A stretch of 64,000 nt of DNA. Origin: Cymbidium sinense. Lineage: Eukaryota > Streptophyta > Magnoliopsida > Asparagales > Orchidaceae. Below the pieces are notes generated by a model. The model did not search any database and was not told where the DNA came from. It worked only from the letters and a program-made list of their open reading frames with translations. This document shows positions 8,705 through 62,930 of the stretch, one piece after another (the stretch's first letter is position 1; every line of letters begins with the position of its first letter). The position numbers and the translations under genes are program-made. Location of the stretch: positions 20,284,923-20,348,922 of the forward strand of contig CM038222.1 in the NCBI GenBank assembly GCA_021442155.1, written 5' to 3'.

Positions 8705-8756
8705 ATCAAACATTAATGATTTACTTTGGTGACGGACCTAAATCTGAATAATCATC

Positions 8757-11270: not shown

Positions 11271-11274
11271 ATCA

Positions 11275-39737: not shown

Positions 39738-41193
39738 GCATTTTTCCTCCTGATTGGATCGTTGTAGCTCACTTTTATTGATTTTTATTTTCTCCTTCGT
39801 GGTGATTTCTTGATCTATGGGGTTGGAGGCAACTTTGCTTTCCTTTGGCTTGTTTTCTCCTTCCTCATTTACTATTGGGGTTGGGTGGTCCTCCTTCTTG
39901 GTTTTAGCTTCCTCGTAGTTTGTCCTGGGTGACTACCATTTTTTTTTTTCATTTTTTGATGATCTCTAGGAGGGTTGTGGCTATGCATGATGTTGTTGTT
40001 TTTCCACCTATTTTGGTCTCTATTTTGGGTTAGCCTTTGTTTTTGTTTCCCCTTTCGATTGGATCCTATGGTTGGTTGTTGAGTGGCGCTTGTTGGTCTC
40101 TTCAGATTTGATTAGTTTTGGTCTTTTCAATACTTTTGGTTATTTCTCCCGGTTTGTAGGGGATTCCTATTGGTTGGCTATTTTCTTTGATTGGCATGAG
40201 GATAGTCGCTTATGGTTTTTCTTTTCTCGATGGTTATGCATTTTATTGATGGCTAATACCTAGTGGCTTTTTGTCACTACCTGTAGGATTGATGGCATCC
40301 CTTTCTCTGACTAGGTTGGTCTGATGTTTACTGATGGCTGGTTGTTGCTCTCCCTTGCTTGGAGCTTTGATGTCTATTTGAATGATGGATGTTGTTATTT
40401 TTTATTTTATTTTAGTCTCTTTCTGGGCTATTATATTAGTTGTTGCTATGTTTCTGAATTGGCTGGTCCCTTTGAATTCTTCCTTGCTAGTGGTGTCTCT
40501 GTCACTAACCTTGATGTGTCTTCTAGGTGGCTGGGTATTTGTGACTAGTCTGCTATGGTTTTAGTTGGTTGTTTGATGTTATCGGAGCTTTCTTTATTTT
40601 CTAATGCGCTTTCTAAAATCATTTGGGCTACTTACTTTTGATGTTCGCTGTATCAAGTATGTTAGCTGATATCCCATATATCATCTCTTTTGGTAGCATT
40701 GCATATGAATGTAACCCTTCTTAGGAAGTTTGATATGCATTGTTATGCTGAGATGATCTTAACTAAGCCCTGGCCTTTCATCTCTCTAATTGATTTCTTT
40801 ATCCTTATTATTGTTAGCTATGACTATTGCCTTTGTAGTGTTTTTTAGATTTCTTTTATAGATTGGAAGTTTTCAAATAGAATGATCATTACTCAGTCAA
40901 CTCAAGTGCTGTTGATGTGGATCTTGCTATCTTGCCTCCCAAAAAGGGATCATGAGCCACTGTTGACAAGTCTTTTGATTATATTTTTTCTTATATTGTA
41001 TAAGTCTTAATCTATGTCTTTTCCTCTTTTGCATTTTTAGCTATTGCTTTTTCTATTTGTTTTTCTATAGATGGGGGTATAGCTTTAGGTTCCTTGTACT
41101 GAGAGAACTTTGAGCTTTACCCCTATTAAGGAAATTGTATCCTTTTCTTTTATGGTAATAAAATTTAAACATTCCTTAAAATAAAAATAAAAT
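39738..41193 (+). mobile_element. LINE copy 3, 5'-truncated (3' UTR only)
   Basis: T/G-rich sequence begins abruptly after AACTAAATAAAG and is collinear with 61,200-62,930 of LINE copy 2. Matching points include the GACTACCA block (about 39,930 and 61,331), the GGTTGTGGCTATGC block, the GGTTGTTG(A/G)GTGGC block (about 40,070 and 61,493), the TGTAACCCTTCT...GAAGTTTG block (40,708 and 62,452) and the final TTTGAGCTTTACCCCTATTA (41,110). It ends TTTTATGGTAATAAAAT...CCTTAAAATAAAAATAAAA before CCCTAAA. It contains no RT or RNase H. Short frames (40,072-40,263; 40,324-40,548) are not coding. Confidence 0.88.
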
Positions 41194-41440
41194 GCTCTAA
41201 ACCCTAAACCATAAACCCTAACCCTAACCCTAACCCTAACCCTAACCTCAAAATCCTAAACCCTAAACTCTAAAACCCTAAATAAAACTAATCATTTACC
41301 TAATATGGAATTTTATGGCAATAAAATTCTAACCTTTCCATAAAATAAAAATAGAAAACCCTAATCCCTAAACCATAAACCCTAACCCTAACCCTAACCT
41401 CAAAACCCTAAACCCTAAAACCCTAAACATAACCCTAAAT
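41150..41440 (+). repeat. Local duplication of LINE tail plus telomere repeats
   Basis: The LINE 3' tail with its following telomeric block (from TTTTATGGTAATAAAATTTA at about 41,151 to about 41,285) is repeated from TTTTATGGCAATAAAATTCT at about 41,312 to about 41,440. Both copies contain CCATAAACCCTAACCC and ACCTCAAAA in the same order, at about 160-bp spacing. Confidence 0.85.
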
Positions 41441-44400
41441 TTAAACTCCTAAACTCCTAAACCCTAAACCCTAAACCTAAACTTAAACCTACCATAAACC
41501 TCTAACTAAACTAAACCTAAACTTAAACCTAAAACCCTAACCTAAACTCAAACTCCTAAACTTAACCCCTAAAACCTAAACCTAAAACCCTAAACCTAAA
41601 ACCTAAAACCTAAACTAAATTAAACCTAAAATGCTAAACCTAAACTAAACCCTAAACCTTAAACCTTAAAACCTTAAAACCTAAAATCCTAAACTTAAAC
41701 CTCCCTAAACCTTTAAAACCTATAACCTAGACGCTAAACCCCAAAACCCTAAACCGTAAACCCTAAACCATAAACACTAAACCCTAAACCCTAAACCCTA
41801 AAAACCTAAACCTAAACCTAAACTAAATAAAACCTAAAAAAAATGCCTAAATCCAAATAAAATAAAAACCTAAACTAAAACTTAAACTTAAACCTAAACC
41901 TAAATTAAAAAAATAAAACTAAAATAAAATAAATAAAAACCTAAACTAAATTAAAAAAATAAAATAAATCTAAAAATAAAAAGCCTAAATAAAATAAAAA
42001 CTAAATATAAAATGAAAATAAAATATAACTAAAATAAATTTAAAAATAAAAACTAAATAAAAACCTAAAAAATAAACATAAAAATAAATAAAAAATCTAA
42101 CCTTAACCCTAAATTAAGAAAAACTAAACCTAAAATAAACAAAATAAAATAACGTAACCCTAAATGAAAATAAACTAAACTAAAATAATTAAACCCTAAA
42201 CCCTAAACCTTAAACCATAAACCTACAACCCTAAACCCTAAACCCTAAACCCTAAAACCCTTAAACCCTAAACCCTAAACCTAAACCCTAAACCCTAAAC
42301 CCTAAACCCAAAACCCTAAACCTAAACCCAAAACCTCAAACCCTAAATGATAAAACCTACAACTCCAAAACCTAAACCTAAACTTAAACCCAAACCCAAA
42401 AACTCTAAAATCCTAAAAACCTAAACCTAAACTAAAAAAAAACCTTAAAATAAAATAAATAAATAAAAATTAAACCTAAATAAAATAAAATAAATAAAAA
42501 TAAATAAAAACCTAAACCTAAACCTAAAACTAAAATAAATAAATAAAATAAAAATTAAACTAAAAAAATAAAATAAACCTAATAATAATACCTAAACATA
42601 AAATAAAAATAAAATCAACCTAAAATTAATTAAAATAAAAACTAAGTAAAAACCTAAGCCTAAACAATAAACCTAAAAATAAAACTTAAAAATAAATAAA
42701 AAATAAAACCTAAACCCCAAACTAAAAATAAAACCTAAACCTAAAATAAAAATAAAATATACCTAAACCTAAACTAAAATGAACTAAATTAAAATAAATA
42801 AAAACTAATCCTAAACCAAAAATAAACTAAACTTAAACCTAAACCTAAATTAAATAAAATAAACTAAAAAATAAACCCAAACATTAACTAAAAACTAAAA
42901 ACCTGAAAATAAACCTAAAATAAAAACCTAAACCTAAAAAAAAAGTGAAATAAAAACCTAAACCTAAACCTAAAAATTAAAATTAAAATAAAACTAAATT
43001 AAAAAATAAATATAAACCTAAACTTAAACCTTAAAATAACCTAAATTAAAAAAGCTAAAAAAATTTAAATAAACATAAAATAAATAAACTAAACTAAATA
43101 AAAATTAAAAATAAACCTATATAAAAATATAAAATAAACTAAAAAAACTAAATAAACCTAAAACTACCGGTTTCTTTAATTTTTTTTTTTTAGAAAAAAC
43201 CCTAAATCTTAAACCCTAAACCTTAAACAGTAAATCCTAATCCCTAAAACCTAAACCCTAAACCTAAAAAATAACCCTAAACCGTAAACCCTAAAAAACC
43301 CTTAACCCTAAACCTTAAACTCTAAATCCTAAATCCTAAACTAACCCTAAATCCTAAACCCTAAACCCTAAATCATAAACACTAATCCTTAAACCCTAAA
43401 CTCTAAACCTAACCTTAACCCTAAACCCTAAACCCTAAACCCTAAACCTAAACTAACCCTCTCAATCCTCAAACTCCAAAATCTAAAATAAAACTATAAG
43501 TCTTAAACTTACCTAACCTAAACTCAACCCTAAAACCCAAAATCAGAAGTTTTAAACCTAAAACCTAAACTCCTAACCTAAACTCAAAACACAAAACAAA
43601 ACTATAAATCATAAACCTAAAACCTTAAACCTAAACCATGAACCCTAAAATCCTAAACCTATACTTTAAACCTTAAAACCTTAAACCTAAAACTCCTAAA
43701 CCTTAAACCTAAACCTAAACCTAAACCCTAAACCTAAATCCTAAACATCAACCCTAAACCATAAACCCTAATCCCTAAAGTGCAAAACTTACAACCCTAG
43801 ACCATAAACCCTAAACCCCAAACCTTAAACCCTAAACCCTAAACCATAAACCCTAAATCCTAAACCCTAAACCTTAAATACTAAAAGTCTAAAAACCTAA
43901 ACCAAAATTGAATAAAACCTAAAACCATAAACCTAAATAGAATAAAACCTAAAAATAAAATAAATAAAAAAACATAAACCTAAATAAACTAAAAACCTAT
44001 ACTAAAACCTAAACCTAAATCTAAACTAAAATAAAATAAAATAAATAAAAACCTAAACTAAACTAAAAAAAAAAAAATAAAATAAAATAAAATAAAAACA
44101 ATAAAAAATAATAAAACTAAAATAAATAAAAACTAAAAAAACTAAAACCTAAATTAAAACCTAAAAATTAAAATTAAATAAAAAAAACCTAAACCCTAAA
44201 TCTAAAAAATAAAATAAAATAAAATAAAATAAACATAAACCTAAACTAAAATAAATAAAATCTAAACCTTAACCTTAAACCCTAAATGCTAAAACACTAA
44301 ACCTTAAACACTAAACATACAACCCTAAACCTACAAGCCTAAACCCTAAACCCTAAACCCTAAAACTCTGAACCCTAAACCCTAAACGCTAAATCCTAAA

Positions 44401-46308
44401 CCCTAACCTTAACCCTAAACCTTAAACTCTAAATGGAAAAACCCTAAACCTTAAACACTAAGCTAACCCTAAACCCTAAACCTTAAACCCTAAATCTTTA
44501 AGCCTAAATCGTAAACCCTAAACCCTAATATAACCCTAAACCCTAAAAACCCTAAACTCAAAAGCCTAAAGTCAAAACATAAAAACCAAACCCCTAAACC
44601 TTAAACCATAACCCTAAACCATAAACCATAAAACTCTAAACCTAAAACCCTATATCCTAAACCCTAAACCCTAAAAACCAAAAAACTAAACCTAAATTAA
44701 ATAAAACCTAAAAATAAAAAAAATTACCATAATAAAAAAAATTAAAATAAAATAAAAACCTATACCAAAAAATAAAAAAATAAAATAATAAAAATAAACT
44801 AAAATAAAATATATAAAAACCTAAACTAAGCTAAAAAATAAACTGCACCGAAGAATAAAAAAGAAAAATAAAATAAAAACTAAATGTAAAATAAAAATAA
44901 AATAAACCTAAAATAAAATATAAAAAAAATTAAATAAAACCTAAACCTAAAAATTTAAAAAAAAAACCAAAATACTAAATTAAAAAAAAAACTAAACCTA
45001 AAATAAAAATAAAATAAACCTAAACCTCTAAACTAAATTAAACTAAACTAAAATAAATAAAACCTAAACCGAACTAAACCTGAACCTAACCCTAACCCTA
45101 AACTAACTAAATAAAATAAAATAAACTAAAAAAACAAAACCTAAACTAAAAAAATAAAATCAAAAATAAACCTAAAACTTAAACATAAAATAATAAAATA
45201 GAAACCTAAACCTAAACATAAAAATAGAACCTAAACCTAGTAAATAAAATAAATATAATGCTCAACTAAAAAAATAAACCTAAACATAAACCTAAACCTA
45301 AAAAATAAATTAAAATAAAAAACCTAAACTAAAATAAATAAACCTAAAATATAAAATAAGCTAAAATAAATAAAAAATATACTAAATATACTAAACAAAC
45401 CTAAACCTACCGGTTTACTTAATATTAAGATAAAAAAACCTTAAACCCTAAACCATAAACCTACAACCCTAAACCCTAAACCCTAAGCCTACAACCCAAA
45501 ACCCTAAACCCTAAACTAACCCTAAACCCTAAATAAAAAAAAAAATTAAAAAAACCCTAAGCTTAAACCCTAAACCTTAAAACTAACCCTAAACCCTAAT
45601 TTCTTAACCTACAACCCTAAAACCCTAAAACCCTAAACCCTAAACCCTAAACCTTAAACCCTAAACCCTAAACTTTAAACCCTAAGCCCTAAAACCTAAA
45701 CCCTAAAACCTACAACCTACAACCCTAAACCCTAAACCCCAAACCCTAAAATTAAAACCTAAACCTAAACCTAAACCAAAACCAAAACGTAAAAAATAAA
45801 ATAAAAATAAAAAAACTAAATTAAATTAAATAAACCAAAGGTAAATAAATAAAACTAAATAAAAATTAAAAATATACATAAATTAAAATAAAATAAATAA
45901 AATAAACTAAAATAATTAAAAATAAACTAAATAAACCTCAACCTACAGGTTTACTTAATTATAAAAAACTTTAAAAAAATAAAATAAACTAAAATAAATA
46001 AAAATTAAACTAAATAAACCTATAACTCCCTGCTTACTTAATTATAAAAGAAACCTTAAACCTTAAATATAAAACCCTAGACCCTAAACCCTAAACCTAC
46101 AATCGTAAACCCTAAACCCTAAATGCTAAACCCTAAAACCTAAAAGCATAAACCTAATAACCCTAAATCCTAAATCCTAAACCCTAAACCCTAAACCCTA
46201 ACACTAAACCTAAAAACTAAACCTAAACTAAAACTTAAAGGAACTAAATAAATTAAAAAGTAAACTTAACCCTAAAACATAATAAACCAAAACCTAAACC
46301 TAAACCCT
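41194..46308 (+). repeat. Telomere-like satellite segment 7
   Basis: CCCTAAA-rich blocks lie at 41,194-41,820, 42,190-42,410, 43,195-43,900, 44,270-44,680, 45,435-45,750 and 46,045-46,308. Bodies span 41,815-42,190 (partial), 42,415-43,181, 43,900-44,265 (partial), 44,680-45,424 and 45,750-46,043 (short). Closing motifs are at 43,161-43,181 (ACCGG with TTTCTTTAATTT), 45,404-45,424, 45,941-45,960 and 46,022-46,043, the last two only about 80 bp apart as a local duplication. No gene is seen. Confidence 0.94.
41217..41250 (+). repeat. CCCTAA hexamer run (TTAGGG-type telomere repeat)
   Basis: Five consecutive CCCTAA units run without the third A of the plant heptamer. A second, shorter run lies at about 41,378-41,398. 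This is the six-base form found in vertebrates and in part of the Asparagales. Here it is a local variant in a heptamer context. Confidence 0.85.
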
Positions 46309-46735
46309 AAGAATGGGCGTAACCTCGATACTAAACATCACCGCCAACCGTGCCTCAAAAAGCAAGGGAGGTGGTTATCGAGGCCGGTGGGGATCTAAGG
46401 TGCATGGACATGGATGTGGTGGGAGCAATGGGGGAGGCTGAGGAGGATGGAGGTTACAAACATAGTGGTAAGAAGAAATCAAACATATTATGGTGGATCC
46501 TGCTACTGGAAGCCGGCCTCTAATGTGAACTTTAGAATTTGAAGAAAAGCTCACCGCTGCTTATGGAACTATGTCTTACAAGTAGAGATAGTTCTAGTAT
46601 CTATGGTTTTGATTTGCTCCACGCCATTTTTGATCTATGTCGTCACTAGTATCTTAGAAAACTTAATGTGTTACTTGGTTGATGAAATCGAGAAGAAGAA
46701 ATGTTGAATCTAAATTTGTTCTCTATTAAAAAAAA
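46309..46735 (+). pseudogene. GRP 3' cassette 4
   Basis: It starts AAGAATGGGCGTAACCTCGA (the MNGQNLD position, ATG to AAG). NITANRA-like codons follow, then a Gly-rich stretch with many small deletions. A DPATG/SHYSRG-like region lies near 46,495-46,520. The 3' UTR keeps CTTACTTGGTTGATGAAATC-like sequence and AGAAGAAATGTTGAATCTAA. It ends in an A8 tract (46,728-46,735). At 427 bp it is shorter than cassettes 2 and 3 through scattered deletions. Confidence 0.85.
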
Positions 46736-48764
46736 TAAAAAACCCTAAACCTTAAACTAAAATCAAAATCGTAAACCTAAAACCTAAACCCTAAATCCTA
46801 AACCTTAAACCTTAAAAACCTTAAACCCTAAACCCCAAACTCTAAACAAAAAAACACAAAACCATAAACCCTAAATGTTAAAACCTAAACCCAAAACCCT
46901 AAACCATAAAAACCCAAAACCCTAAACCATAAAACACTAAACCATAAACCCTAAATGCTAAAACCTAAACTTTAAACCCTAAACACTAAACCCTAAACCC
47001 TAAAATGATAAACTTTAAACCCCAAACCATAAAACCTAAATCCTAAACCCTAAACCCTAAAAACCTAAAAACCTAAACCTAAACATAAAATGAAAAAAAT
47101 AAAAAATAAAAACTAAACTAAAATAAAATAAATAAAAAACCTAAACTAAAGTAAAATATAAAAAAAAAACCTAAATTAAATAAAAATTAAACTTAAAATT
47201 AAAATAAAATAAACCTAAACTAAAATGAAATGAAAACTAAATAAAAATAAACCTACATAAAACTAAAAAATAAAATAAATAAAAATAAATAAAAAATAAA
47301 CTAAATTAAACTAAACCTACAAGTTTACTTAATTTTAAAATAATAAAATGATAAAAAATAAAAAAACCCAACCCTAAACCCTAAAACTAACCCTAAACCT
47401 ACAACACTAAACACTAAACCCTAAACCCTAAAACCCTAAACCCTAAACCCTAAAACCCTAAATCCTAAACACTAAAACCTAAACCCTAAACCATAAACCA
47501 GAAAACCTAAAACTTACAACCCTAAACCCTAAACCCTAAACCCCAAACCCTAAACACTAAACCCTAAACCCTAAACATAAAAAACCTAAAAATCTAAACC
47601 TAAACTAAATAAAACCTAAAAGTAAAATAAAATAAATAAATAACCTAAACCTAAATAAAATAAAAAAATAAAAAAAAAAAACTAAACTAAAACCTAAACA
47701 TAAACCTAAAAAATAAAATAATATAAAAATTGAAAACTAAACTAAATCAAAATAAATAAAAACCCAAACTAAGCTAAAAAAAATTAATCCTAAAAATAAA
47801 AAAATTAAATAAAATAAAAACTAAACATAAATAAAAAATAAAAGCCTAAAAGAAAATAAAATAAAAACCTAAACCTAAAATAAACAAAATAAAATAAACC
47901 TAAACCTAAACTAAAATAAACTAAAATTAAATAAATAAAATCTAAACTTAAAAAAAACGAAACCTACCTAAACTAAATCAAATAAAATAAACTAAAAATA
48001 AACCTAAACCTAAACTAAAAAATAAAACCAAGAAAGAAACCTAAAATAAAAACCTAAAACATAAACCTAAAAAAATGAAATAAAAACCTAAACCTAAAAA
48101 AGAAACTAAAATAAATAAAATAAACTAAGTAAAATAAAAATAAACCCAAGAAAAAATAAAATAAAATAAGAAACCTAAACTAAACAAAAAATAAAAATAA
48201 ACCTGAGAATAAAAATCCTAAATAAAATAAAAACTAAACATAAAATAAAAATAAAATAAACCTAAAATAAAATAAAATAAAAATTAGATAAAAATGTAGA
48301 CATAAAAAATAAACATAAAATGAAACCTAAAAAAGCCTAATCCAAAATAAAATAAATAAAGTCAAATTAAATTAAAGCCTAAATTAAAACCTAAACCTAA
48401 ACCTAAACCGAAAACTAAAAATAAAATATAATAAAAAATAAAAACTAAACTAAAATAAAATAAATAAAAACCTAAACTAAACTAAAAAATAAAATAAACC
48501 TAAAAGTAAAAGAATAAATAAAGTAAAAATTAAACCTAAATATAAATATTAAAAATAAAAAAAAACTAAAACAAATAAAAAATAAACTAAATAAACCTAA
48601 ACTATTGGTTTTCTTAATTTTTCTTTAAAAAAATGCTAAACCCTAAACCCAAAACCTTAAACCCTAAATCCTAAATCATAAACCTAACATAAAGTAGCCA
48701 AATAAATTAATAAAATAATCCTAAACCCTAAAACCTAATAAACCTTAACCTAAACATAAACCAT
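46736..48764 (+). repeat. Telomere-like satellite segment 8
   Basis: CCCTAAA blocks lie at 46,738-47,060, 47,360-47,580 and 48,630-48,764. Bodies are 47,060-47,336 (short, with closing motif at 47,314-47,336) and 47,585-48,620 (long; around 48,150-48,500 it repeats earlier parts of the body, suggesting unequal exchange), closing at 48,598-48,620. Confidence 0.94.
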
Positions 48765-49188
48765 AAGAATGGGCGTAACCTTGAGAACATCACCAACCGT
48801 GCTCACCAGATATGGCTGTGGAGGCTAAGGTGGAGGCAAAGGATTGGTTGGTGTGGGGGATATGGAGGTGCTATGGATATGGAGGTGGTGGTCAAGCAAG
48901 GTTATGGAGGCAAGTGAAGGTTAAGGTGGTGGTGGTGAGGAGAGATCGGGATATGATGGTGGATCCCCACTGAGAGGACGGGGTGGCTCGATGGGAATTG
49001 GAGAAGTCAAGAACACTGATTCGACTTTTAGAACTGTCTTTACAAGAGATTCTAGTTATTTAGATTTTGATTTGCTCTATGCATGCTCATTTTAATATAT
49101 GTCATCGCCAGGTCTTAGAAAAATTATGTGTAACTTGGTTGATGAAATCATAAAGAAGAAATGTTGAATATGATTTTATTCTCTGTTA
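48765..49188 (+). pseudogene. GRP 3' cassette 5
   Basis: It starts AAGAATGGGCGTAACCTTGA, sharing the AAG and GGGCGT changes with cassette 4. Gly codons are readable (GGYGG, GYGGGGQ) with numerous 1-3 base deletions. GATCGGGATATGATGGTGGA corresponds to RDRGYDGG. The 3' UTR ends TTCTCTGTTAAAA and the A-tail has become an (AAT)n microsatellite. Confidence 0.85.
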
Positions 49189-49212
49189 AAATAATAATAA
49201 TAATAATAATAA
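49188..49212 (+). repeat. (AAT)n microsatellite in the tail of GRP cassette 5
   Basis: About seven AAT units follow GTTAAA at the 3' end of cassette 5 and precede CCCTAAA. Tail microsatellites of this kind usually grow from a poly(A) tract. Confidence 0.85.
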
Positions 49213-51556
49213 CCCTAAACCCTAAACCTAAAACCTAAACCCTAAACCCTAAGCCCTAAAACCATAAACCCTAAACCCCAAAACCCTAAACCCTCAACCC
49301 TAAACCCTAAAACTTAAACCTACAACCCTAAACCTTATAACCTAAACCCTAAACACTAAACCCTAACCCTAACCCTAAACCCTAAACCCTGAAACCCTAA
49401 ACTGTAAACCCTAAACTAACCCTAAACCCAAAACCCTAAAAACCATAAAAACTAAAAACCTTGAAGCCTAAACCCTAACCATTAAACCTTAAACCCTAAA
49501 CTAACCCTAAATGCTAAGCTAACCCTAAATGCTAAGCTAACCTCAACCCTAAACCATAAAAACCCTGAACCCTAAACCTCAAACACTAAACACTAAACCC
49601 TAAACCCTAACCTTAAACACTGAATCCTATAGCCCTAAACCCTAAAACCCTAAACCATAAACCATAAACCCTAAACCCTAAACATTAAAAACCAAAAAAC
49701 TTAAACCAAAACTAAATAAAACCTAAAAATAAAATAAATAAAAAACCTAAACCTAAACAAAAAAAACTAATAAAAAAAGCTAAACTAAATTGAAAAAATT
49801 AAAAAAAACCTAAGAATAAAAAACTTAAATAAAATAAAAAAATGTAAAATAAAATAAAATAAAAACTAAATAAAAAGGTAAATCTAAAAATAAATAAAAA
49901 AATAAAACCTAAACCCTACCTAAACCTAAAATAAAAATAAAATAAACAAAATAAGATAAACCTAAACGTAAATAAAAATAAACTAAGCTAAAATAAATAA
50001 AGCCTATACATAAACCTAAAATAAACTAAACCTAAACCATAAACTAAAGAAAATAAAAAAAACTAAAAATAAACCTAAACCTAAACTAAAAAATAAAACC
50101 TAAAAAATAAACCTAAAATAAAAACCTAAACTAAATAGAACCTAAAAATAAAATAAATAAGAAAACCTAAACCTAAATAAAATAAAAAATAAAAATAAAA
50201 ATAAAAACATAAACTACAACCTAAACCTAAACGTCAACCCAAAAAGGAAAAAAAATAAACTAAAATAAAATAAATAAAAACATAAACTAAACTAAATAAA
50301 AAATAAAAAACATAAATAATATAAAAACTAAACCTAAAATAAAAATGAAATAAACATAAAATAAAATAAAAAAACAAAATAAAAATTTCAACCTATGAAT
50401 TAAACCAAAAAATAAATAAATAATAAAAAAATCCTCACCCTAAACCCTAAACTCTAAACCCTAAAACCCTAACCGCGAAACCCTAAACCCTAAACGTAAA
50501 CCCTTAGCCCCTAACCCCTAAACTCTAACCCCCAAAACCTACAACCCTAAACCCTAAATCCCAAACCCTAAACCCTAAACCCTAAATCCTAAATCCTAAA
50601 TCCTAAAATGAAAAAAACCTAAATCTAAACTAAATAAAAATTAAGAATAAAATAAAAAAAAACTAAACCAAAATGAAATAAAAAAACCTAAACCCAAATA
50701 AAAGAAAAAATAAAATAAAATAAGAACTTAAATTAAAACCTAAACCTAAACATAAAAAAGAAAATAAAATAAAATAAAAACTAAACTAAAATATAATAAA
50801 TAAAAACCTAAACTAAACTAAATAAAATAAAAAACCTAAATAAAAAACTAACCTAAAATAAACTAAACATAAACCAAAAGCTAAATTAAATATAAAAGAA
50901 TAAACTAAAATAAACCTAAACCAAAGTGAAAAATAAAATAAAAAAAAAATAAACCTAAAATAAAACTTAAAACCTAAACTTAAAAAAGTAAAATAAAACC
51001 TAAACCTAAACTTAAAAAAAATAAAACATAAACCTAAAAAAATAAAATAAAAAATAAAAAACTAAACTAAAAAAATAAACCAAAACTTAAAAAATAAACA
51101 AAAATAAAATAATCTAAAATAAATAAACATAAAAAATAAACTAAACTAAATAAAATAAACCTAAATAAAAATAAAAATAAAATAAACTAAACTAAATAAA
51201 AAACTAAATAACCTAAATAAGCCAAAACTTACCGGCTTACTTAATTTAAGAAAAAAATCATAAACCCTAAACCCTAAAACCCTAAACCCTAAACCATAAA
51301 CCTCAAAAGCATAAATCCTAAACCTAAACCCTAAACCCTAAACCCTAAGCCATAAACCCTAAACCCTAAACCCTAAACCCTAACCCTAAATCCTAAACCT
51401 TAAACACTAACCCTAAACCCTAATCCCTAACCTCCAAACCTTAGACCTATACCTTAAGTAACTAAATATATTAAAAAGTAAACCTAAAAAACTAATAAAC
51501 CTAAACCTAAACCTAAACCCTAAAGCATAATAAACCTAAACCTAAACTAAACCCTA
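49213..51556 (+). repeat. Telomere-like satellite segment 9
   Basis: CCCTAAA blocks lie at 49,213-49,690, 50,435-50,610 and 51,250-51,556. Bodies are 49,695-50,430 (the closing motif is decayed to CAACCTATGAATTAAACC) and 50,610-51,247 (closing motif 51,224-51,247). A small duplication, CTAACCCTAAATGCTAAG, occurs twice at about 49,501-49,538. Confidence 0.94.
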
Positions 51557-51955
51557 AAAATTGGTGAAACTTTGATGGTAGGAGCTTCATAATGGCTCTA
51601 GATCGTGGAGGTGAAATCAATATTAATTTCAATGGTGGGGGATCTGTAGTGGATATGGAGGTGGTGGTCAAAGTAGTGGAGATGGAGGGAGGAATGACAA
51701 GGTTACAAAGTGGTGGAGGTTGGAGGAGCTATTCGAGAGGTTGGTGGTTGATAACGAGGAAGAAGAATGAGATCTGCTTATGGAATTGTGTCTTTATAGT
51801 AGAGATGGGTTATCTAGGGTTTTTGATTTTCTCTTTGAGTGCTCATTTTTTATTTATATCTTCTCTTGTGTCTTATAAAACTTGGTGTGTTAGTTGATTG
51901 ATGAAATAAAAAAGAAGAAATGTTGAATATGATTTTGTTCTCTATTAAAAGAAAC
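51557..51955 (+). pseudogene. GRP 3' cassette 6
   Basis: It starts AATTGGTGAAACTTTGATGG (NGxxLDG), a diverged form of the shared start. LDRGGEI, then GGGGSxxGYGGGGQSSGDGGRN can be pieced together in shifted frames. YSRG and the RNxEE/N end near 51,730-51,765 mark the C-terminus. A 101-codon frame (51,592-51,897) crosses it in a wrong frame. The 3' UTR ends TTTTGTTCTCTATTAAAAG. It is the shortest cassette (about 400 bp). Confidence 0.83.
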
Positions 51956-54650
51956 CAAAAACCCAAAATCCTAAATTAAAACCTGAACCCTAAACCAAAA
52001 ATGTAAATGCTAAACCCTAAACACTAAACCAAAAATCCTAAACACTTAACTAAAACCTGAACCCTAACCCTAAAACCTAAACCATAAACCCTAAGCCCTA
52101 AACCCTAAAAACATAAAACCCTAAACCCTACACCCTAAACCCTAAAATGCTAAATCCTAAACCCTAAACCCTAAAACCTAAACCTTAAACCTTAAACCCT
52201 AAACCCTAAATGTTAAACTCTAAACACAAAAAAAAAACTTTAAACCCAAACCTTACACCATAATCCCTAAACCCTAAACTAACCCTAACCTTAAACAGCT
52301 AAAAACCTAAACCTAAACTAAATAAAACATAAAAATAAAATAATGAAAATAACTTAAACAAAAAAAAAACATAAAAATAAATAAATATAAAATAAACCTA
52401 AACCTAAACCTAAAGCCTAACAAATAAAAAATAAAATGTAAAATAAATAAAAAATTAACTAAACTAAAATTTAAAACCTAAATAAAATAAAAACTAAACC
52501 TAAAACAAAATAAAATAAACCTAAAATAAAAATAAAATTAAATAAAACCTAAACCTAAAAAAATAAACCTAAAACCAAAATCCTAAACTAAAAAAAACCT
52601 AAACCTAAAATAGAAATAAAATAAACCTAAACCTAAACTAAAATAAATGTAACCTACATCTAAACCTAAAATAAACTAAACCTAAACATAAACCTAAACT
52701 AAATAAAATAAAATAAACTAAAAATAAACCTAAACCTAAACTAAAAAATAAAACCTAAAAATAAATATAAAATAAAAACATTAAACCTAAACATAAAAAA
52801 ATAAAAATAAAAAACAAAACTGAAACCTAAAAAATAATATAAAAATAAAACTAAACTAAAACATAAATCTAAACCAAAACCTAAAAAATAAACTAAAATA
52901 AAATCCTAAACTAAATAATAAAAAAAACTAAATAAAAAATAAAAAATAAACTAAAGAAAAATAAAATAAAATAAACTAAAATTAAAATAAACTAAATAAA
53001 CCTAAACAAACTATTTTACTTAATTTAAAAAAGTAAAAAAATAATAAAAAAACCTACCCTTAAACCCTTAACTCTAAACTGACAACCCTAAACCCTAAAA
53101 CCCTAAATGCTAAACATAAATTGTAAAACCTAAGCCCTAAAACCTAAACCCTAAAACCCTAAACCCTAAACTCTATTTAAAAAAATTAATCCCTAAACAT
53201 TAAACCCTAAACCCTAAACCCTAAACTAAAACCTAAACCATAAACCCAAAACTAAACCCTAAACCCTAAACCCTAAACCCTAAACCCTCAACCATAAACC
53301 CTGAAACCCCAAAACCTAAACATAAATAAAAAAATAAAATAAAATAAACTAAAAACCTAAACTAAAACTTAAACCTAAACCTAAAAATAAAATAAAATAG
53401 AAAAAAACCTAAATTAAAATAAAATAAATAGAAACCTAAACCTTTAAAAAAACTTAAATAAAATAAAAACTAAACTTAAAATAAAAATAAATAAACCTAA
53501 GATAAAATAAAACTAAACCTAAAATAAAAACTAAACCTAAAAATAAATAAAAAATAACACATAAACCCTAAATTAAAAAAAATAAACCTAAAATAAAAAT
53601 AAAATAAATAAAATAAAATAAACCTAAACCTAAATTAAAATAAACTAAACTAAATTAAATAAAACTTAAACCTAAACCTAAAATAAACTAAACTTAAACC
53701 TAGACCAAAACTAAATAAAATTAAATAAACTGAAATTAAACTTAAGTTTAAACTTAAAAATAAAACCTAAAAATAGACATAAAATAACAACCTAAAACCT
53801 AAACCTAACCCTAATAATAAAAAAAAAACATAAACCTAAAAAATAAAATAGAAATAAAACTAAACTAAAAAATAAACCTAAACCTTAAAAAAATTGAAAA
53901 AAACCTAAACTAAAATAAATAAACCTAATATAAATAAACCAAATTAAATAAATTAAAAATAAAACCTAAATAAAAATAAAAAGTAAAATAAGCTAAAATA
54001 AATAGAAAATAAACTAAATAAACCTAAACCTACTGGTAAATAAAATAAAAAAAATTCTAAACACCAAATCCTAAACTCTAAACCCTAAATAAACCTAAAT
54101 GCTAAACCTAAACCTAAAACTAACTTAAATTAACTAAAATAAATAAAACTAAACCTAAACATTAAACTAAACCTAAACCTAAATAAATAAAACTAAATAA
54201 AAACCTAAACCCTAAAAATAACCCTAAACTATAAATAAACCCTAAACCCTAAACCTAAACCCTAAACACTAAACCCTAAACCTAAACTAAACCCTAAATA
54301 ACTAAACCCTAAACCCTAAAATCTAAACCCTAAACTAAACCTAAACCTAAACCCTAAACCTAACCTAAAACCTAAACTAAAACTAAACCCTAAAACTAAA
54401 CACTAAATGCTAAATAAACCTAAACTATCCTAAACCTAAACATTCAAAGAATAAACCCTAAACCTAAAACCTAAACACTAAAATAAACTTAAACCCTATC
54501 CAAGCCTAAACCTTAAAAGAATAAACACTAAAACTTTAAACGCTAAACCTAGACCTAATACACCCTACAAACCCTAAACTAAACTCTAAAAAACCTAATG
54601 AAAAATAAATTAAAAAAAAAGAAACTTAAACCAAAACCTAAAATAAACCT
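51956..54650 (+). repeat. Telomere-like satellite segment 10
   Basis: CCCTAAA blocks lie at 51,956-52,300 and 53,045-53,310. Bodies are 52,300-53,027 (closing motif CTATTTTACTTAATTT at 53,005-53,027) and 53,310-54,040 (motif cut to ACCTACTGGTAAATAAA). The stretch 54,045-54,650 is a mixed CCTAAA/CCCTAAA region, less ordered, leading into cassette 7. Confidence 0.94.
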
Positions 54651-55060
54651 TAATGGGAAAATAATAGGAACATCACCATCAACTAGGCTCGCCTAGATCT
54701 GCTGTGGAGGTGAAGGCATAAAATTAAGGTGGTGGGGAACTGGCGGTGGATATGGAGGTGGTGGAAGTAATGGTTGTTATGGAGGCGAGGAGAAACATCC
54801 ATGATGGTTCTAAGGGAGAGATTGAGGATATGGTGGATCCCATTAATCAAGAGGCGGGTGGTTCTAGAACTTGAGAAACCAAGAATAATCGATCTTCGCT
54901 TATCAATTAAAGAGAAAGTGTTATAATCAGGGTTTTGATTTCTCGCATGTTCATTTTTTATCTATGTTATCGCTTGTGTCTTAGAAAACTTATGGTGTTA
55001 CTTGGTTCATGAAATTAAAAAAGAAATATTTAATTTGAATTTTTTCTCTTTTATAAAAAA
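54651..55060 (+). pseudogene. GRP 3' cassette 7
   Basis: It starts TAATGGGAAAATAATAGGAA (NGK..., with part of the NLDG codons lost). ACATCACCATCAACTAGGCT corresponds to NITIN-stop-A, with the stop shared with cassettes 2 and 8. GYGGGGSNGCYGG-like codons follow. The 3' UTR has GTGTCTTAGAAAACTTATGG and ends TATAAAAAATAAG. It is preceded by the unordered CCTAAA region rather than a clean heptamer block. Confidence 0.83.
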
Positions 55061-56533
55061 TAAGCAAAAACTCTAAACCCTAAACCAAAACCTGAACCTT
55101 AAACTAAAAACCTAAACCCTAAACTCGAAACCCTAAACCCTAAAAACCCCAAACCCAAAACCCTAAATCGTAAACCTTAAACCTTAAACCCTAAACCCGA
55201 AAACTTTAAACCCGAAACCCTAAACCCTAAACCCTAAACTAACCCTAAACCATAAACCCTAAACCCTAAAAAGCTAAAAATGTAAACCTAAACTAAATAA
55301 AAGCTAAAAATTAAATAAAAAAAACCTAAACCAAAATAAAAAATAATTAAATAAAATAAAATGAAATAAAACCTAAATCGAAAAAGAAAATAAAATAAAA
55401 AATAAATACATAACTAAAATAAAATAAATAAAACCTAAAGTAAACTAAAAAAAACCTAAATAAAATAAAAATATACCTAAACTAAAATAAAATAAAATAA
55501 AAACTACATAAACACATAAACCTAGAAAAATAAACCTAAAAATTAATAAAAAATTAAACTTAAACCCTAAACTAAAAAAAAAATAAACCTTTAATAAAAA
55601 AATAAACTAAACCTAAACTAAAATAAACTAAACTAAAATAAATAAAACTTAAATCAAAAATAGACTAAACCTAAACCTAAACCTAAACTATATAAAAGAA
55701 AATAAATTAAAAATAAACCTAAACCTAAGGTAAAAGAATAAAACCTAAAAATGAACCTAAAATAAAAACCTAAAATCTCAACTTAAAAAAATAAAATAAA
55801 ACCCTATACCTAAACCTAAAAAATAAAATAAAAATAAAACTAAACTAAAAAATGAACATAAACCTAAACCTAAAAAATAAACTAAATAAAAAAACCTAAA
55901 CTAAAATAAATAAACCTAAAATAAATAAATTATACTAAATAAAAGGAAAATTGAACCTAAATAAAAATAAAAAAAACTAAAATAAATAAAAATAAACTAA
56001 ATAAACTTAAACCAACTAGTTTATCTAATTAAAATAAATAAATAAAAACCCTAAACCCTAAACCTTAAACTCTAAATCCTAAACCCTAAACCCTAAACTT
56101 GAAACCAAAACCCTAAACCCTAAACCCTAAACTATAAACCCTAAACACTTAACCCTAATACCCCAAACCCTAAACCCTAAAACTAACCCTAAACCATAAG
56201 CTAACCTTAAATCCTAAACCCTAAACCATGAAAACCCAAAACCCTAGAGCCTAAACACTAAACCTTAAACCTTAAACCCTAAAAATTGTAAACCCTAAAG
56301 CCTAAACACTAAAACCTAAACCCTAAACACTAAACCTTAAGCTCTAAACCTTAACCCAAAACCCAAAACCCTAAAACCCTAAAACCCTAAACCCTAAACC
56401 CTAAACACTAAACCCTATCCCTAAACCCTAAGCCCTAAACTCTAAACTATAATCCTTAAACCTAAACCAAAAGAAACTAAATAAATAAAAAATAAACTTA
56501 AACCCTAAAATCTAAACTTAAGACTAAACCCTA
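55061..56533 (+). repeat. Telomere-like satellite segment 11
   Basis: A CCCTAAA block (55,061-55,275), one complete body (55,275-56,030, closing with ACTAGTTTATCTAATT at 56,009-56,030) and a long CCCTAAA block (56,045-56,533) join GRP cassettes 7 and 8. It is a good example of the complete unit: cassette, heptamer block, body, motif, heptamer block, next cassette. Confidence 0.95.
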
Positions 56534-57003
56534 ATAATGGGCAAAACCTTGATAGGAACATGAGCATCAACTAGGCTCCTAGATCTAGTGGTGAAGATGG
56601 GCGATGGTTATCATAGTGGTGGCAGGGGATCTGGAGTTGCTGGTGGATATGGAGGAGGTGGTCGGAGCAGTGGTGGTTATGGAGGCAGGAGGAGCAATTA
56701 ATGTTACATCTGTGGTGGTCACGGAGGGATAGATCAGGGATATGATGGCAGATCTCACTGCTCAAGAGGTGGTGGTGGTCCTAATGGGAACTAGAAATAA
56801 AAGATTGGCCGATCTGATATGCTACTTATGAAACTGTGTCTTTATAGTAGAGACAATTATAGTTATCAAGACTTTTTGATTTTCTTTATTCATGCTCAGT
56901 TTTTATCTATATCATCGCTTGTGTCTTAGAATACTTGGTGCACTATTTTGTTGGTGAAATCAAAAAGAAGAAATGTTTAATATAAATTTAATCTTATAAA
57001 AAA
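56534..57003 (+). pseudogene. GRP 3' cassette 8
   Basis: It starts AATAATGGGCAAAACCTTGA (NGQNLD), with NMSIN-stop-A after. The Gly-rich domain is well kept near 56,590-56,780: DGYHSGGRGSGVAGGYGGGG and RSSGGYGGRRS, a stop, then GGHGGIDQGYDGRSHCSRGG. A short normal-position stop follows GN. The 3' UTR contains ATCATCGCTTGTGTCTTAGA and GAAATCAAAAAGAAGAAATG. The A-tail is decayed (TTATAAAAAATTAAATG). A 64-codon frame on the minus strand (56,571-56,765) is its reverse image. Confidence 0.87.
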
Positions 57004-58037
57004 TTAAATGTAAAACCTTAAACATTTACACCCTAAACCCAAATAAACACTAAACCCTAAACCTAATAAACTAAAATAAACTAAAACCCAAAACCCTAAA
57101 CCCAAACACTAAACTTAAACCACCTAAACCCTAAACCCAAACCTAAACCATAAAATCTAAACCCTAAACCCTATAGTAAACCAAACCATAAACCCTAAAT
57201 AAAATAAACCCTAAACCCAGAACTTAAATAAACCTAAACCCAAAAAAATCTAAACCCTAAACCTAAACCTAAACTAAACCCTATACCTAAACCTAAAAAA
57301 CTAAACTTAAATAAACCCTAAACTAAACCCTAAACCCTAAAACTAAACCTAATAAACTAAATAAAACTAAACCCTAAAAATAAAATAAAAAAACCTAAAT
57401 TAAAATAAATCTAAAAAACCTAAACCCTAAAAAACCTAAAAAATAAACCTAATAAATAAATAAACTAAACCTAAATAAACTAACCTAAATAAACTAAAAT
57501 AAACCTAAGTAACTAAAACCTAAATAAACTAAACTAAATAAACTAAAACCTAAACTAAATAAAATAAACTAAATAAACCTAAACCTAAACTAAAATAAAC
57601 TAATAAACCTAAATATAAATAAACTTAACCTAAACCTAAACTAATAAATAAAACTTAAACAAATATAAACTAAACCTAAAAAACTAACTAAACTAAAGAA
57701 AACTAAACTGCTAAACCTAAATAATAAACCTAAATAAATAAAATAAACCTAAACTTAACTGATAAAAATAAATAAAATAAACTAAAAACCTAAACCTAAA
57801 AAACTAAAACCTAAAATTTAAACTAAATAAACTAAAAATATAAACCTAAACTTAAACTTAAACTAAACCCTAAACCTAAACTAAACTAAATAAAATATAA
57901 ATATAAACTAAATAAAATAAATCATAAACCCTAAACCTAAACTAAACAAATAAATAAACCTAATATAAATTTAAACATAAAAATAATACTAAACCTAAAT
58001 AAAAAACCTAAACCTAAAACTAAACCTAAACCTAAAT
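57004..58037 (+). repeat. Telomere-like satellite segment 12, CCTAAA/CTAAA type
   Basis: This is a mixture of CCCTAAA, CCTAAA, CTAAA and AATAAA words without the ordered body or closing motif, similar to 36,500-39,737. It ends where LINE copy 2 begins (after CTAAATAAG). Confidence 0.93.
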
Positions 58038-58049
58038 AAGAAAGATAAT

Positions 58050-58394
58050 TTGGACTATTGGAGTGATTTTAGACTTATTAGTCTTTTCACCTTCTCCAAT
58101 AAGCTGATTTCCAAAATTCTTGGCAACATGCTTAGGCCTTTACTTCATAAGATTATCTCTCTCATCCAAACTCATTTTGTTAGAGGTAGATCTATTTCTG
58201 ATAACATTTTACTTGCCCATGAATTAATTCATGACTTAGATGCTAAGACTAGAGAAGGAAACTTTCTTTTCAAATTAGATATTACCAAAGCTTTTGATAA
58301 TATCTCTTGTGATTTCCTTTTCCATATTCTGAATTTATTTGGGTTTTCTTATAAATTTACTTTTCTTATTAATAATTGTATTAATAATGTCTAG
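58050..58394 (+). pseudogene. LINE copy 2 reverse transcriptase, N-terminal half
   Basis: This 114-codon frame begins at the element's 5' break: YWSDFRLISL (family: dyRPISL), FVRGRSISDNILLAHELIHD, LFKLDITKAFDNISCDFLFH (motif A with catalytic Asp in KAFDN), then ILNLFGFSYKFTFLI. It ends at a TAG where the family has Trp. Downstream in other frames are HGLG-stop-VDP (family: HGLRQGDP) at about 58,443 and FVDDFII (motif C, both Asp kept) at about 58,590-58,610. These lesions make it inactive, but the domain order is complete. Confidence 0.88.
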
Positions 58395-59982
58395 TTTTCT
58401 ATTTTGCTTAATGGGGAAGCTTTGGGCTTCTTTCCTTCTTCACATGGCTTAGGATAAGTGGATCCTTTATCTCTTACTTTATTTTTTATTGTTGTTGAGT
58501 ACTTATCTAGGAGCATCAATGACTTATTTTAAAATAATCCTAGCATGTACTAAAGAACTCTTGGTGGCCTTTTTGTTTCCCACATAAGCTTTGTAGATGA
58601 TTTCATTATTTTTTGCAATGCTTCTATTCAACATATCAAGAACCTCAAGATTTTTTTAAATAAATATGGTAGAGAAAGTGGTCTTTCTATCAATGATAAT
58701 AAAAGCTATTTTATTATTTCTTCAAGTATCTCTAATAATAAAATCATTCAAATCCAACATATGACGAATTTTAAACATCAACACTTACCTCTTAAGTACT
58801 TCCATGTTCCTCTAAAGGTTCAAAATGATATCATCTTTTTGATGAGTTAAATAAAAAAATTTTAAATAATAATTTTTATTAGGAATTTCATTTACTTTCC
58901 TTTGGTGGTAGGCTCACTATTCTTAAAAGCACTCTCAATTCTATGCCCTTTAGTTGATTCAAACTAATATTCTCACTAATTCTACTCTTATCAGAATTGA
59001 TCGCTTGCTCAAAAAAAATTTTGGGGATCCAATAATTCTATTAAAAGAATGCATTGGACATCTTAGCATAAATGTTGTGGTCCTTTGGGTGAAGGTGGTC
59101 TTGGTTGCAAACCTATTCATGAAGCTATGTCTGCCTTCTCTCATATGCTCTAGTGGAATTTTAGGAAGAATGATAGCCTTTGGGCTAATTTTATGATGGA
59201 AAAATATTGCTAAGGTAAACACCCTCTTATCTATGCTTATAAAGTTAGTGATTCTCCGATTTGGAAAAGGCTTTGCTCCATTAAATGGGTTGTTTAATCC
59301 TTAATATCTTGGGGTATTCATTCGGGTTTGGCAAGACAATTGGATTGGAAATGGTTCTATTGACTCCCTTTTATCTATATGCTCTACTGCTACTATCAAA
59401 GTTAACTCTTTTAGGCTTAATAACAATAGGAATAAAAACAAACTTGAGAACTACATTCTATTTCTATTTTTGACAAGTTTTGCAACATCGCTATCTTTTA
59501 TAATAAACCTGATCAAATTCTTTTCAAGCTCTCTTACAATGGCAATTTCATTCTTTTGGAATTTTATTATAAATAAATAAAACACCTCTAATGTTTTCAT
59601 TAAACTATGGAACAATATCATTCCCATTTCTTATGTTGTTTTAGCTTGGAGGATTTTGAATAACTTCATTCTTAGATTGTTGCTCGGATCAAAGGGTTTT
59701 ATTTACCTTCCAAGTGCTATTGTTGCTTTCATATTGAAAATGTTAATCATGTTTTTGTCAATGGTGCTATTGCTTCCAAACTTTGGATATGGTATGACGA
59801 TTTATTTAACACTAACTATTTTCATGGCTCTCTTTAGTTACAACAACTTCTTGAAGTTTGTTTCCATAAAACTATGAAAGGTCATATGAAAGTTTTAATT
59901 GCTATTACCTTTATTTTGTTCATTTGGATGGATAGAAATGATGCTAAATATCTAGGCATCCCTTTGAACCATAGAAGTATCC
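58395..59982 (+). pseudogene. LINE copy 2 RT C-terminal half and zf-RVT region (broken)
   Basis: Several frames carry RT motifs B and C, then FHLLSFGGRLTI (about 58,885-58,925), LNSMP, and after 59,500 QILFKLSYNGNF, KLWNNIIPISYVV, and PSKCYCCFHIENVNHVFVNG near 59,715-59,770, a zinc-knuckle-like block with two close Cys and two His. KLWIWYDDLF follows. The corresponding frames of copy 1 are at 9,450-11,270. Short ATG frames here (58,954-59,196; 59,285-59,473; 59,656-59,877) are mostly out of frame. Confidence 0.78.
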
Positions 59983-60624
59983 TTGCTAGAACTAAGGGAA
60001 AATATCCATGCTCTTTTTAATGCAAATTTAATTAGTAATCTTCATTTTAGAGGTTATAAATTTTTGGCTAAAAAATTGGGTATGACTTTGCATGATGACC
60101 CTTCCTACAAGAGTATTAGGATTATACATTGGATTAAGCCTAAAGAAAATTTTATAAAGATTAATACTGATGGTTATGTTTCCTCAAACAAATATGGTTG
60201 TGGTGGAATTCTTAGGGATTCTAAAGGTACCGTCATCTGTTCTTTTGCCTACCTCCTCAAAGCTTATTCTGTTATTTATGCTAAGCTCATGGTTGTTAAT
60301 AAAGCAATTGATATTTTTTTAAACAAAGGCAATTTTAATATTTGGATTGAAGTTGATGCTCTTCTTTTACTTGATATGATCAATACTAATAAAATAGGGA
60401 ATGCTAACTTATTTTATCTTCTTAATCACACTAAAAAGCTTCTTTCTCAAGTTTGCTACAAAATTTCTCACATTCTTCGTGAATGTAATGCTTGTGTTGA
60501 TTTCTTGGCTAATTTAGGATCTAAATTAAATGAGCTCACTTTATTTTATAACCTTAGCTTACTTAAGCATCTAGATGGTCTAGTCAATCTGGATAACACT
60601 GGACTGCCTTACCTCAGATTTTAA
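59983..60624 (+). pseudogene. LINE copy 2 RNase H domain (long open frame)
   Basis: This 213-codon uninterrupted frame is the C-terminus of the LINE polyprotein, so its ATG is not a true start. RNase H motifs: KINTDG (Asp63), GCGGILRDSKG, YAKLMVVNKAI, NIWIEVDALLL (Asp125), CNACVDFLANLG (Asp173), ending LVNLDNTGLPYLRF. The second catalytic position, Glu in copy 1 (FAELMAVYKAL), is Lys101 here, which should abolish catalysis. The upstream segment (HALFNANL...YKFLAKKLG) matches copy 1 at 11,130-11,210. Its open state despite broken RT upstream is probably chance or relative youth. Confidence 0.9.
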
Positions 60625-62930
60625 CTTTCTGCTATTTTGTTTATCATATTGCTATGGTGGTTCTATTCAGTCTATTTTTTCATTATTTCTTTGTCATTCC
60701 CTCACAAGGAATTGGTTTTTGCTATTTTTCTTTAGGGTCATGGTCAATCTCACTTTATATGAAAGCTACCTTGTTGGTTTTAGTTTATTTCTAAACTTAA
60801 ACCCCCTTCCTCTTTACCTCATTGTATACTTGACCCTTATTCATAGTGGTACTATTTTTAATTAGTTTTCCTATCCTCTGAGACTGGTGGTTTTTTTTGT
60901 GGCTCATGTTATGCTTCTTTTTTCACATAGCTAGTGATATTTTAGGGGTCTCCTGCTAGGTTGTGGTTGTACCTGATTTTATCTTACCCTTTATACTAAT
61001 TGATGTTGGGTTTGCCTCTTATTTTGGCTAGCTATTACTTTATTTGAATTGGATTTTTGGCTGCTATGGTTGGTTCTGTTGGATGCTTCTATTTGCTTCT
61101 TCCATCTGCCTGACTATTTTGGGTGGTCATTTTTTCATGGTTGCTATTTGTCTCTTCTAGTTTGGCATAATTTTGGGCTTTTGGTGGTTGTTGTTCTCCT
61201 TTCCTGGTTTCGTTTGGGGGCTTCTGCTGGTTGGTTTTTCCCTCTATCTTGTTCCTTTCCTCGATGATTTACTACTTGTGGTTGGATGGTTCTCCTTGAC
61301 CTTTTTTACCTTGGTTTTTTGTCTGGCTGAATGACTACCAATTTTATTTTTTGGTTCTTTCAAAAATCTCCAGGTTGGTTGTGGCTATGCCTGCTATTAT
61401 TCTTTCCCTTTATTTTATGCTCTATATTAGGTTAACCTCTTATTTTGGCTGGCTTCTCCCTTTACTGAATTGGAACTTATGCTGTTGTGGTTGGTTGTTG
61501 GGTGGCAGCCATTGGTCTCATCAGGATTTGCTTCACTTTGGTTTTTTCAGTTCTTTTTGGTTGTTTTCCTAGTTTGGGTTGGTGTTTTCTTTTTGTTGGT
61601 TGTTTTCTCTATTGATAGGTATGAGGACAACTGCTTTGTGGTTCTTTTTTTTATCTAGACCTGGGTTTTTGTTTACTGGAGGAGATGGTTGTCGCTACTT
61701 TTTGTCTATGCATACTGGTTTGCTGGCAGCTGCTCCTCTGACTGGATTGGTCTAGCGTTTGCTGAAGGTTGGTTGTGGCTCTCTCTATCTTTATGTCTTG
61801 GGATTGAATGTTGTCTTGCCCTGGATTCTTATGCTTGGCTTGGTGTCTTGGGATTTAGGTTGGCTATTGGTATTGACTCCCTCTTGTTTATTTTGTTATC
61901 CTTGTTTCTTGATATTTGCCTCTTGGTCGGTGGTGCTGGATTTGCTATTTTTTCTGCTACCTTGGTGGCAGTTTTGATGGTAATTTTTGGATTCCCTCTT
62001 GGTCTCCTTATGGGTTTCCTCTCTCTAGTGCTACTTATCATCTATTATTTTGCTATTTTAGTGGAGGTTTTGCCCTTAGATTTGGATTGCTATTGCTCTA
62101 GAAATAGTCGGGTTGTTGTTATGCCTTTGGGACTATTTCGCTGGGTTGTGTTTTACCCCTATTCATGCTGACTGCTCCTTTTTTGTGTTCCTCTTCCTTT
62201 TGGTGGTGGCTTTGGTAGAGTTCTTGTTTTTTTTAGCTTGGATCGATCCTACTGTAACTTTGTTGGTTTTATGTGATTGGTCTATTGGGTTTTGGTTGGT
62301 GGGTTAGGCCTATTTTCTACTTATTTGGTGCAGGACTTGGATCACTATGGATTGTTTTGCCTTAGATGGTTTGCTTATATTAGGTATGCTGGCTATGTTG
62401 GCCTTGATGTTTACTCATATCTTCTCTCTGGTTGGTAGCATTACATATGACTGTAACCCTTCTCAAGAAGTTTGGATGCTCATATGCATTGTTGCCACTG
62501 AGATGATCTTAAGCCCAAGCCTTCTCTTTCTCGTTCTAAATTGTTTGCTTTATCCTTTTCCCTTGCGCTATGATTATTGCCTTTGCAATGTTTTGATGAA
62601 TTCTTTTGCAAGTTGGAACTTTACGATGGAATGAGCTTTACTACCAACTCAAGTGTTGTTGTTGTGTATCTTGCTTATCTTGCTTTCTCAAAGGGATCAA
62701 GAGCTACTTCTAACTAGTCCTTTTACTACTTTCATGAGTTGTATTGGTCTTATTCTCGTTTCTCATATGCTTTTATTATTGATTTGTTTTTATTTTTTTC
62801 TTTTTTTTTCCTTTTCTAATGTACTTAGATTAGCTCTTAGTTTCTTATAAAGAGATTGAACTTTGAGCTTTACCCTTATTAAGGACATTCTATCTTTTCT
62901 TTTTATGGTAATAAAATCCTAACATTTCCC
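60625..62930 (+). other. Long T/G-rich 3' untranslated region of LINE copy 2
   Basis: This 2.3-kb sequence is T and G rich, with hydrophobic chance frames such as 61,689-62,171 (160 codons, Trp/Leu/Phe-rich) on the plus strand. From about 61,200 it is collinear with LINE copy 3. The conserved block ATGACTGTAACCCTTCTCAA and GAAGTTTGGATGCTCATATG lies at about 62,448-62,485. TATGGTAATAAAATCC just before the tail holds an AATAAA poly(A) signal (about 62,910). Confidence 0.78.

Follow-up and report, generated by a model that had tools for sequence, protein, structure and literature searches.

Processed pseudogenes made by L1-type long interspersed nuclear elements (LINEs) are normally dispersed and number one or a few per event, and short interspersed nuclear elements (SINEs) are short, have fixed ends and an A-rich tail, and reach very high copy number. 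An AT-rich, telomere-containing repeat was reportedly described in Pinus by Shibata in 2005. Interstitial and variant telomeric repeats are described for seed plants (PMC9827991, PMC8621592), and satellites built from pieces of mobile elements are also on record, for example the repeats from the 3' untranslated region (UTR) of Ogre elements in Lathyrus (PMC7004042). Here we analyse 64,000 nucleotides of the orchid Cymbidium sinense (C9:20284923-20348922, ‘the window’), in which pieces of a gene for a glycine-rich RNA-binding protein (GRP) interrupt telomere-like DNA, and trace these cassettes to a reverse-transcribed host mRNA that now recurs at tens of thousands of places in the genome.

Eight GRP cassettes, ∼390–480 bp each, interrupt the telomere-like DNA of the window, all on the plus strand. 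Their starts and strand had been proposed from the letters alone (the original prediction), and a DNA profile of the cassette body recovers all eight (8 rows) with no other match in the window; five of the eight are among the 90 copies on which the profile was trained. Translated searches (tblastn) with six unedited GRP proteins, all from other plants, reach E 2.5e-4 or better for six cassettes, spanning residue 69/70 to the C-terminus in the best-kept cassettes, so the similarity to RRM-glycine proteins that the prediction presupposed is borne out. Cassettes 1 (21349-21797) and 3 (27205-27682) are found by tblastn and by DNA alignment to the parent gene described below, cassette 2 (25809-26287) gives the best tblastn match (E 5.8e-29 at 25832-26086), cassettes 4 (46311-46727) and 8 (56535-56997) are supported by tblastn and DNA, and cassette 7 (54651-55052) by tblastn and the DNA profile. 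Cassettes 5 (48767-49187, predicted start 48765) and 6 (51558-51946, predicted start 51557) reach only E 0.006. Since a glycine-rich stretch outside any cassette (7317-7454) also scores E 2.5e-4, weak tblastn scores alone prove nothing, and these two are assigned by DNA because their protein scores are weak (clear DNA likeness for cassette 5, the profile for cassette 6). Pairwise identity of the eight is 66–79% (some flank included), and the RRM end of the cassette consensus matches the structure of an RNA-binding glycine-rich protein (4c7q, E 4e-4, query with E in place of a stop).

The parent lies in the same genome. Among the best 150 of 73,633 candidates from an own-genome search with a Hevea GRP (own-genome searches covered 3.53 Gb), a single match is long, on contig C13; the list of the other 149 comprises 145 pieces starting at residue 47–69 and ending at 158–159, and 4 other RRM matches. 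The long match is a two-exon gene (L009) encoding a 166-residue RRM-glycine protein (Pfam RRM_1, E 3e-22), whose nearest relatives are orchid proteins; its best matches come from Dendrobium chrysotoxum, at 94% over 51%, and Phalaenopsis equestris, at 92% over 53% of the query. The cassettes derive from this plant GRP7/8-type gene, and hold the RRM end, glycine-rich tail and 3' UTR that had been read in them. Aligned with the parent, they are collinear with mRNA nt 207–697, cut in the middle of exon 2 and stopping at the inferred cleavage site.

Both ends are fixed. Measured against the spliced parent, 105 of the 106 blastn pieces that start at or before nt 215 begin at nt 205–209, 88 of them at nt 207. 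After nt 697 the parent reads TGATCATTCTG, whereas the copies carry an A-run (median 7, range 0–9; 6 of 90 copies have none). Since this run has no counterpart in the parent's DNA and the cassettes stop where the mRNA does, DNA-level capture of a gene segment is ruled out; the ‘captured gene fragment’ of the original prediction is instead a reverse-transcribed mRNA piece with a fixed 5' truncation. The cassette is thus a 5'-truncated processed retrocopy, and its founding event was an ordinary processed pseudogene. One such event is likely because 29-mers running past either end, across the 5' break or across nt 697, each occur at a single place in the genome, the parent (≤3 mismatches), as against 40,703 matches for a 29-mer inside the 3' UTR (≤2 mismatches; backward control 0) and 10,643 exact matches for the first 16 nt of the cassette (control 0). 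The exon–exon junction of the parent has 0 places in the genome (≤3 mismatches), so no longer processed copy was found. In the profile, the 5' end is present in 113 of 129 copies and falls beyond the locus edge in 6; the remaining 10 have later starts: 6 at profile position 8–23, L056 after a decayed GRP, L019 and L077 as fusions, and L031 as the sole candidate for true truncation, into telomere-like DNA. At the other end, L044 and L061 both lack everything 3' of profile position 289–290, where telomere-like DNA follows.

Far from being a local curiosity, the cassettes belong to a dispersed family whose members number in the tens of thousands. Within the sample the 3' 29-mer catches 60 of 118 copies and the 5' 16-mer 41 of 113, rates that put the genome-wide total at ∼80,000 and ∼29,000 copies, respectively; the gap between the two estimates may reflect a more frequent loss of 5' parts. 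The sample consists of 90 of the 150 scored matches of the Hevea GRP search (30 fetched as loci, 60 by region) plus 8 of 40 from each of two other searches; scored matches were listed best-first, so it favours well-kept copies, and the counts leave out the window's own cassette (L001), the parent, and copies whose break or tail falls outside the fetched piece. Sampled copies differ from one another by a median of 19% (minimum 4%, 95th percentile 25%), occur on more than 20 contigs and have the same two ends, which makes it scarcely credible that telomere-like DNA carrying GRP is an artefact of assembly, hard to assemble though low-complexity DNA generally is.

Median difference among 90 copies is 12% from the consensus and 16% from the parent. 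In these copies mismatches occur at rates of 0.110, 0.111 and 0.140 at codon positions 1–3 and 0.124 in the UTR, with C>T and G>A prevailing; by these rates the cassettes look like pseudogenes whose decay has been nearly neutral. The consensus differs from the parent by 1, 5 and 12 changes per 94 sites at codon positions 1–3 and at 16 of 196 UTR sites, as would be expected were the parent held under protein selection. We do not argue for protein function of the copies, as their codon positions mutate almost evenly, the third slightly more.

The window contains ∼33.6 kb of A-rich telomere-like array DNA, in which the plus strand has 540 occurrences of CCCTAAA and 0 of TTTAGGG. By eye, its design consists of CCCTAAA blocks, A-rich blocks and a recurring linker, GGTTTACTTAATTT (9 places, ≤4 mismatches). 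Three arrays are present, all assigned to the plus strand: 15300-27870, where CCCTAAA blocks alternate with A-rich ones, hosts cassettes 1–3 and is interrupted at 18803-19372; 33120-39730 lacks an intact cassette; and 41200-58030 hosts cassettes 4–8. As in satellite DNA, the arrays are long and of one orientation, with Tandem Repeats Finder (TRF) rows covering them and 130 of 130 cassette profile rows on the cassette strand (97 loci plus the window). Upstream of the 105 cassettes with a visible break and 200 bp of flank, 93 have sense telomere-like DNA, 0 antisense, and 12 a LINE end; downstream, 109 of 110 are followed by sense telomere-like DNA and 1 by antisense. Genome-wide, CCTAAA lies within 13 bp upstream of 3,837 of 5,240 reverse-strand exact 5' ends (73%; sample 27/41); the forward-strand rows contain double counts (5,141 rows against 5,403 places). 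TTTAGG lies within 13 bp upstream of 0 exact 5' ends. These counts agree with the prediction that the fragment is amplified and tied to CCCTAAA DNA in this genome, not found mainly outside it. Along contig C1, the first 100 exact 5'-end places form 19 strand runs versus 50.8 expected. Over the first 6.5 Mb of that contig, cassettes stand in long same-strand stretches, suggesting oriented arrays interrupted by other insertions.

LINEs share this orientation. In the window, LINE B (8740-15293, plus strand; left edge approximate, by eye) has an RNase H open reading frame (ORF) at 11388-11741, a T-rich 3' region and an A-run, then CCCTAAA-type DNA; LINE E (39738-41180, plus strand; left edge by eye) is a 3' piece only, followed by A-rich DNA and then CCCTAAA; and the 5'-truncated LINE F (58037-62930, plus strand) has a reverse transcriptase ORF (58050-58394), an RNase H ORF (59983-60624) and an A-run, then CCCTAAA. 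Their T-rich 3' regions, roughly 1–3 kb before the A-run, lie at 12257-15290, 39760-41143 and 60847-62930. A LINE protein search gave none at E 0.001 among 317 candidates. Across the 97 loci and the window, 27 of 27 LINE 3' ends found by profile lie in GRP orientation (15 of the 27 built the profile).

Endonucleases of L1-type elements preferentially nick a strand where it carries a run of T. In the arrays the plus strand holds TTAAAA 154 times and TTTTAA 7 times; T-runs thus stand almost only on the TTTAGGG strand, and, given that preference, retro-insertions should therefore face one way without telomere-specific machinery. The one-way orientation fits this strand asymmetry, if the same nicking rule holds in this species, and the asymmetry offers a simple explanation for a possibly uniform orientation of retro-insertions in telomere-like DNA.

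We regard as probable a single reverse transcription of GRP mRNA into A-rich telomere-like satellite, with amplification as a passenger thereafter. On this view the polyadenylated mRNA of the C13 gene served once as template for reverse transcription, most likely by the enzyme of a resident L1-type LINE, and the 5'-truncated product, which starts only at nt 207, entered A-rich telomere-like satellite. Nicking of T-runs on the TTTAGGG strand would place the sense strand of inserts on the CCCTAAA strand, as for GRP and LINE copies alike. The insert would then have turned into a passenger of the satellite, taken by unequal exchange, circle re-insertion or block duplication, LINEs included, to tens of thousands of places, its copies afterwards decaying nearly neutrally.

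Spread was probably at the DNA level: we infer block copying because flank likeness, pairs of cassette 5-type (48765-type) copies with LINE F-type elements, a common LINE F 3' flank and the strand runs on C1 all point there. Upstream flanks resemble one another more than a composition-matched control does in 209 of 300 pairs at 0–40 bp, 186 at 40–80 bp and 159–170 beyond, and downstream flanks in 210, 181 and 172–191, respectively (flanks with ≥6% G and the twelve LINE-adjacent loci left out). At 7 loci including the window, a 48765-type cassette is followed, 9–27 kb downstream, by a LINE F-type element of the same strand (5 pairs by the LINE 3' end, 6 by its 5' part), and the 3' flank of LINE F is common beyond control to the window and to loci on C1, C3 and C1352 (the control pool was slightly poorer in C than the flanks, and L105 was unreadable).

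Several observations weigh against this account. Intron loss is not visible in the cassettes, because the single intron of the parent is located upstream of the break, and 6 of the profile copies lack the 3' end. The likeness of flanks falls off outwards (186 and 181 of 300 at 40–80 bp, 159–191 further out; 150 by chance), and a test of window flanks alone came out near chance: the top 5% of controls was reached by 2 of 28 pairs upstream and by 2 of 36 downstream. The figure of 0.04 expected by chance for the 48765–LINE F pairs assumes uniform placement and is a weak control, as both live in the same array type, and the LINE F 3' flank is firmly common to 4 of 7 readable loci, weakly to two, and not to L106. 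Neighbours are not closest relatives, the best window mate of each window cassette ranking 17th–92nd of 115 copies and 14 same-locus pairs 16–114, and interspersed insertion therefore fits better than tandem amplification. By these same-locus ranks the cassettes, considered by themselves, lack the homogenisation of neighbouring units that marks a satellite. The higher-order unit that had been proposed for the 1.9–3.1 kb recurrence in the right half, where spacings are 2456, 2792, 3094 and 1883 bp, accordingly survives as a repeated architecture seen by eye, and not as a homogenised or recently amplified local unit.

The rapid fading of flank likeness and the unrelatedness of neighbouring cassettes would suit a different course, in which the founding copy went on to move as a SINE-like retroposon. 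A host mRNA 3' end would here have founded an element whose RNA, made up of the cassette and nearby LINE sequence (a LINE 3' end) or telomere-like sequence (A-rich (CCCUAAA)n), was repeatedly retro-inserted into telomere-like DNA, with an L1-type LINE priming it on TTTAGGG strands that had been nicked, to give 10^4–10^5 copies in one orientation. Fixed ends with an A-run and the presence of copies on many contigs agree with it, as do the LINE-adjacent cassettes, 12 of 105, in which a LINE 3' end, an A-run and a CCTAAACCCTAA-type linker precede the GRP, the LINE ending 13–16 bp before the cassette and belonging to two subfamilies, as 3' transduction could yield. We nevertheless judge this course unlikely: downstream likeness runs on past the A-run, and repeated retroposition should leave many 5'-truncated copies, whereas hardly any exist, only L031 looking truncated into telomere-like DNA. 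The LINE-adjacent cassettes are those of L010, L014, L015, L017, L021, L023, L049, L054, L063, L067, L074 and L079; the near-identical stop of two LINE subfamilies on several contigs fits either common descent or a preferred site.

The recurrence of 48765-type cassettes with LINE F on the same strand, and the LINE F 3' flank common to the window and the C1, C3 and C1352 loci, would also be expected if the cassette were cargo of a large composite mobile element, tens of kb long, in which LINEs, telomere-like arrays and GRP move as a block. This seems very improbable, as the GRP–LINE F spacing varies, the non-telomeric block inside the first array (island C) is unique at full length, the long same-strand runs on C1 suggest large oriented arrays, and no ends, terminal repeats or transposase were seen, though no systematic search for them was made. 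Two impressions of LINE F were set aside: a 3' flank judged by eye to be common to seven loci, of which the control comparison upholds four, and a fixed 5' junction as a sign of common descent, since three fetched loci show that other copies extend further 5'.

Other features of the window touch the cassettes less directly. The predicted GRP remnant is real: ∼43 nt of 3' UTR (33067-33109, plus strand), below the length detectable by the cassette-body profile, is fused to the end of repeat element D (27870-33066), and the same fusion occurs in longer form at L019 and L077. The last 0.9 kb of element D is found again at 1659-2620 (86%), and partial copies of it lie at 2788-3217. Island C (18803-19372) is rich in CCTGAGCC; its 7 other matches in the genome are short and weak. 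An ORF on the minus strand (6261-6722) has no Pfam match and contains an NLRSGKVLPP stretch, which we take to resemble the gag of plant LTR elements. Rfam at gathering threshold and a tRNA scan returned nothing in the window, and two exact DNA scans of viral contigs gave 0 matches.

We found no earlier description in the open-licence literature of a GRP or glycine-rich fragment in telomeric repeats. A retrocopy with known parent and ends is a tracer inside telomere-like satellite, making measurable a spread that low-complexity repeats normally conceal. GRP7/8 proteins take part in responses to stress and in those of the clock, and 91 of 129 sampled copies have at least one exact 21-mer in common with the parent mRNA, so that satellite small RNAs, if made, could act on the parent gene.

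Like the interstitial telomeric repeats of seed plants (PMC9827991, PMC8621592), the arrays are heterogeneous TTTAGGG-type DNA away from chromosome ends; unlike here, the relevant portions of those accounts mention no host-gene fragment. As in the Ogre-derived satellites, to judge from the part of PMC7004042 that concerns them, a non-satellite sequence became a mass-amplified array component, whereas here that sequence comes from the 3' end of a host mRNA, and the array, instead of consisting of the captured piece, is telomere-like. The cassette resembles SINEs in being short, with fixed ends, an A-rich 3' end and very high copy number, and differs in that its founder is a protein-coding mRNA and its flanks are partly alike. 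With processed pseudogenes it shares 5' truncation, an added A-run, decay and origin from a single gene; in contrast to them, one event here led to copies in the tens of thousands within a satellite, and it is this, a piece of host mRNA at such numbers in telomere-like DNA, that is unusual.

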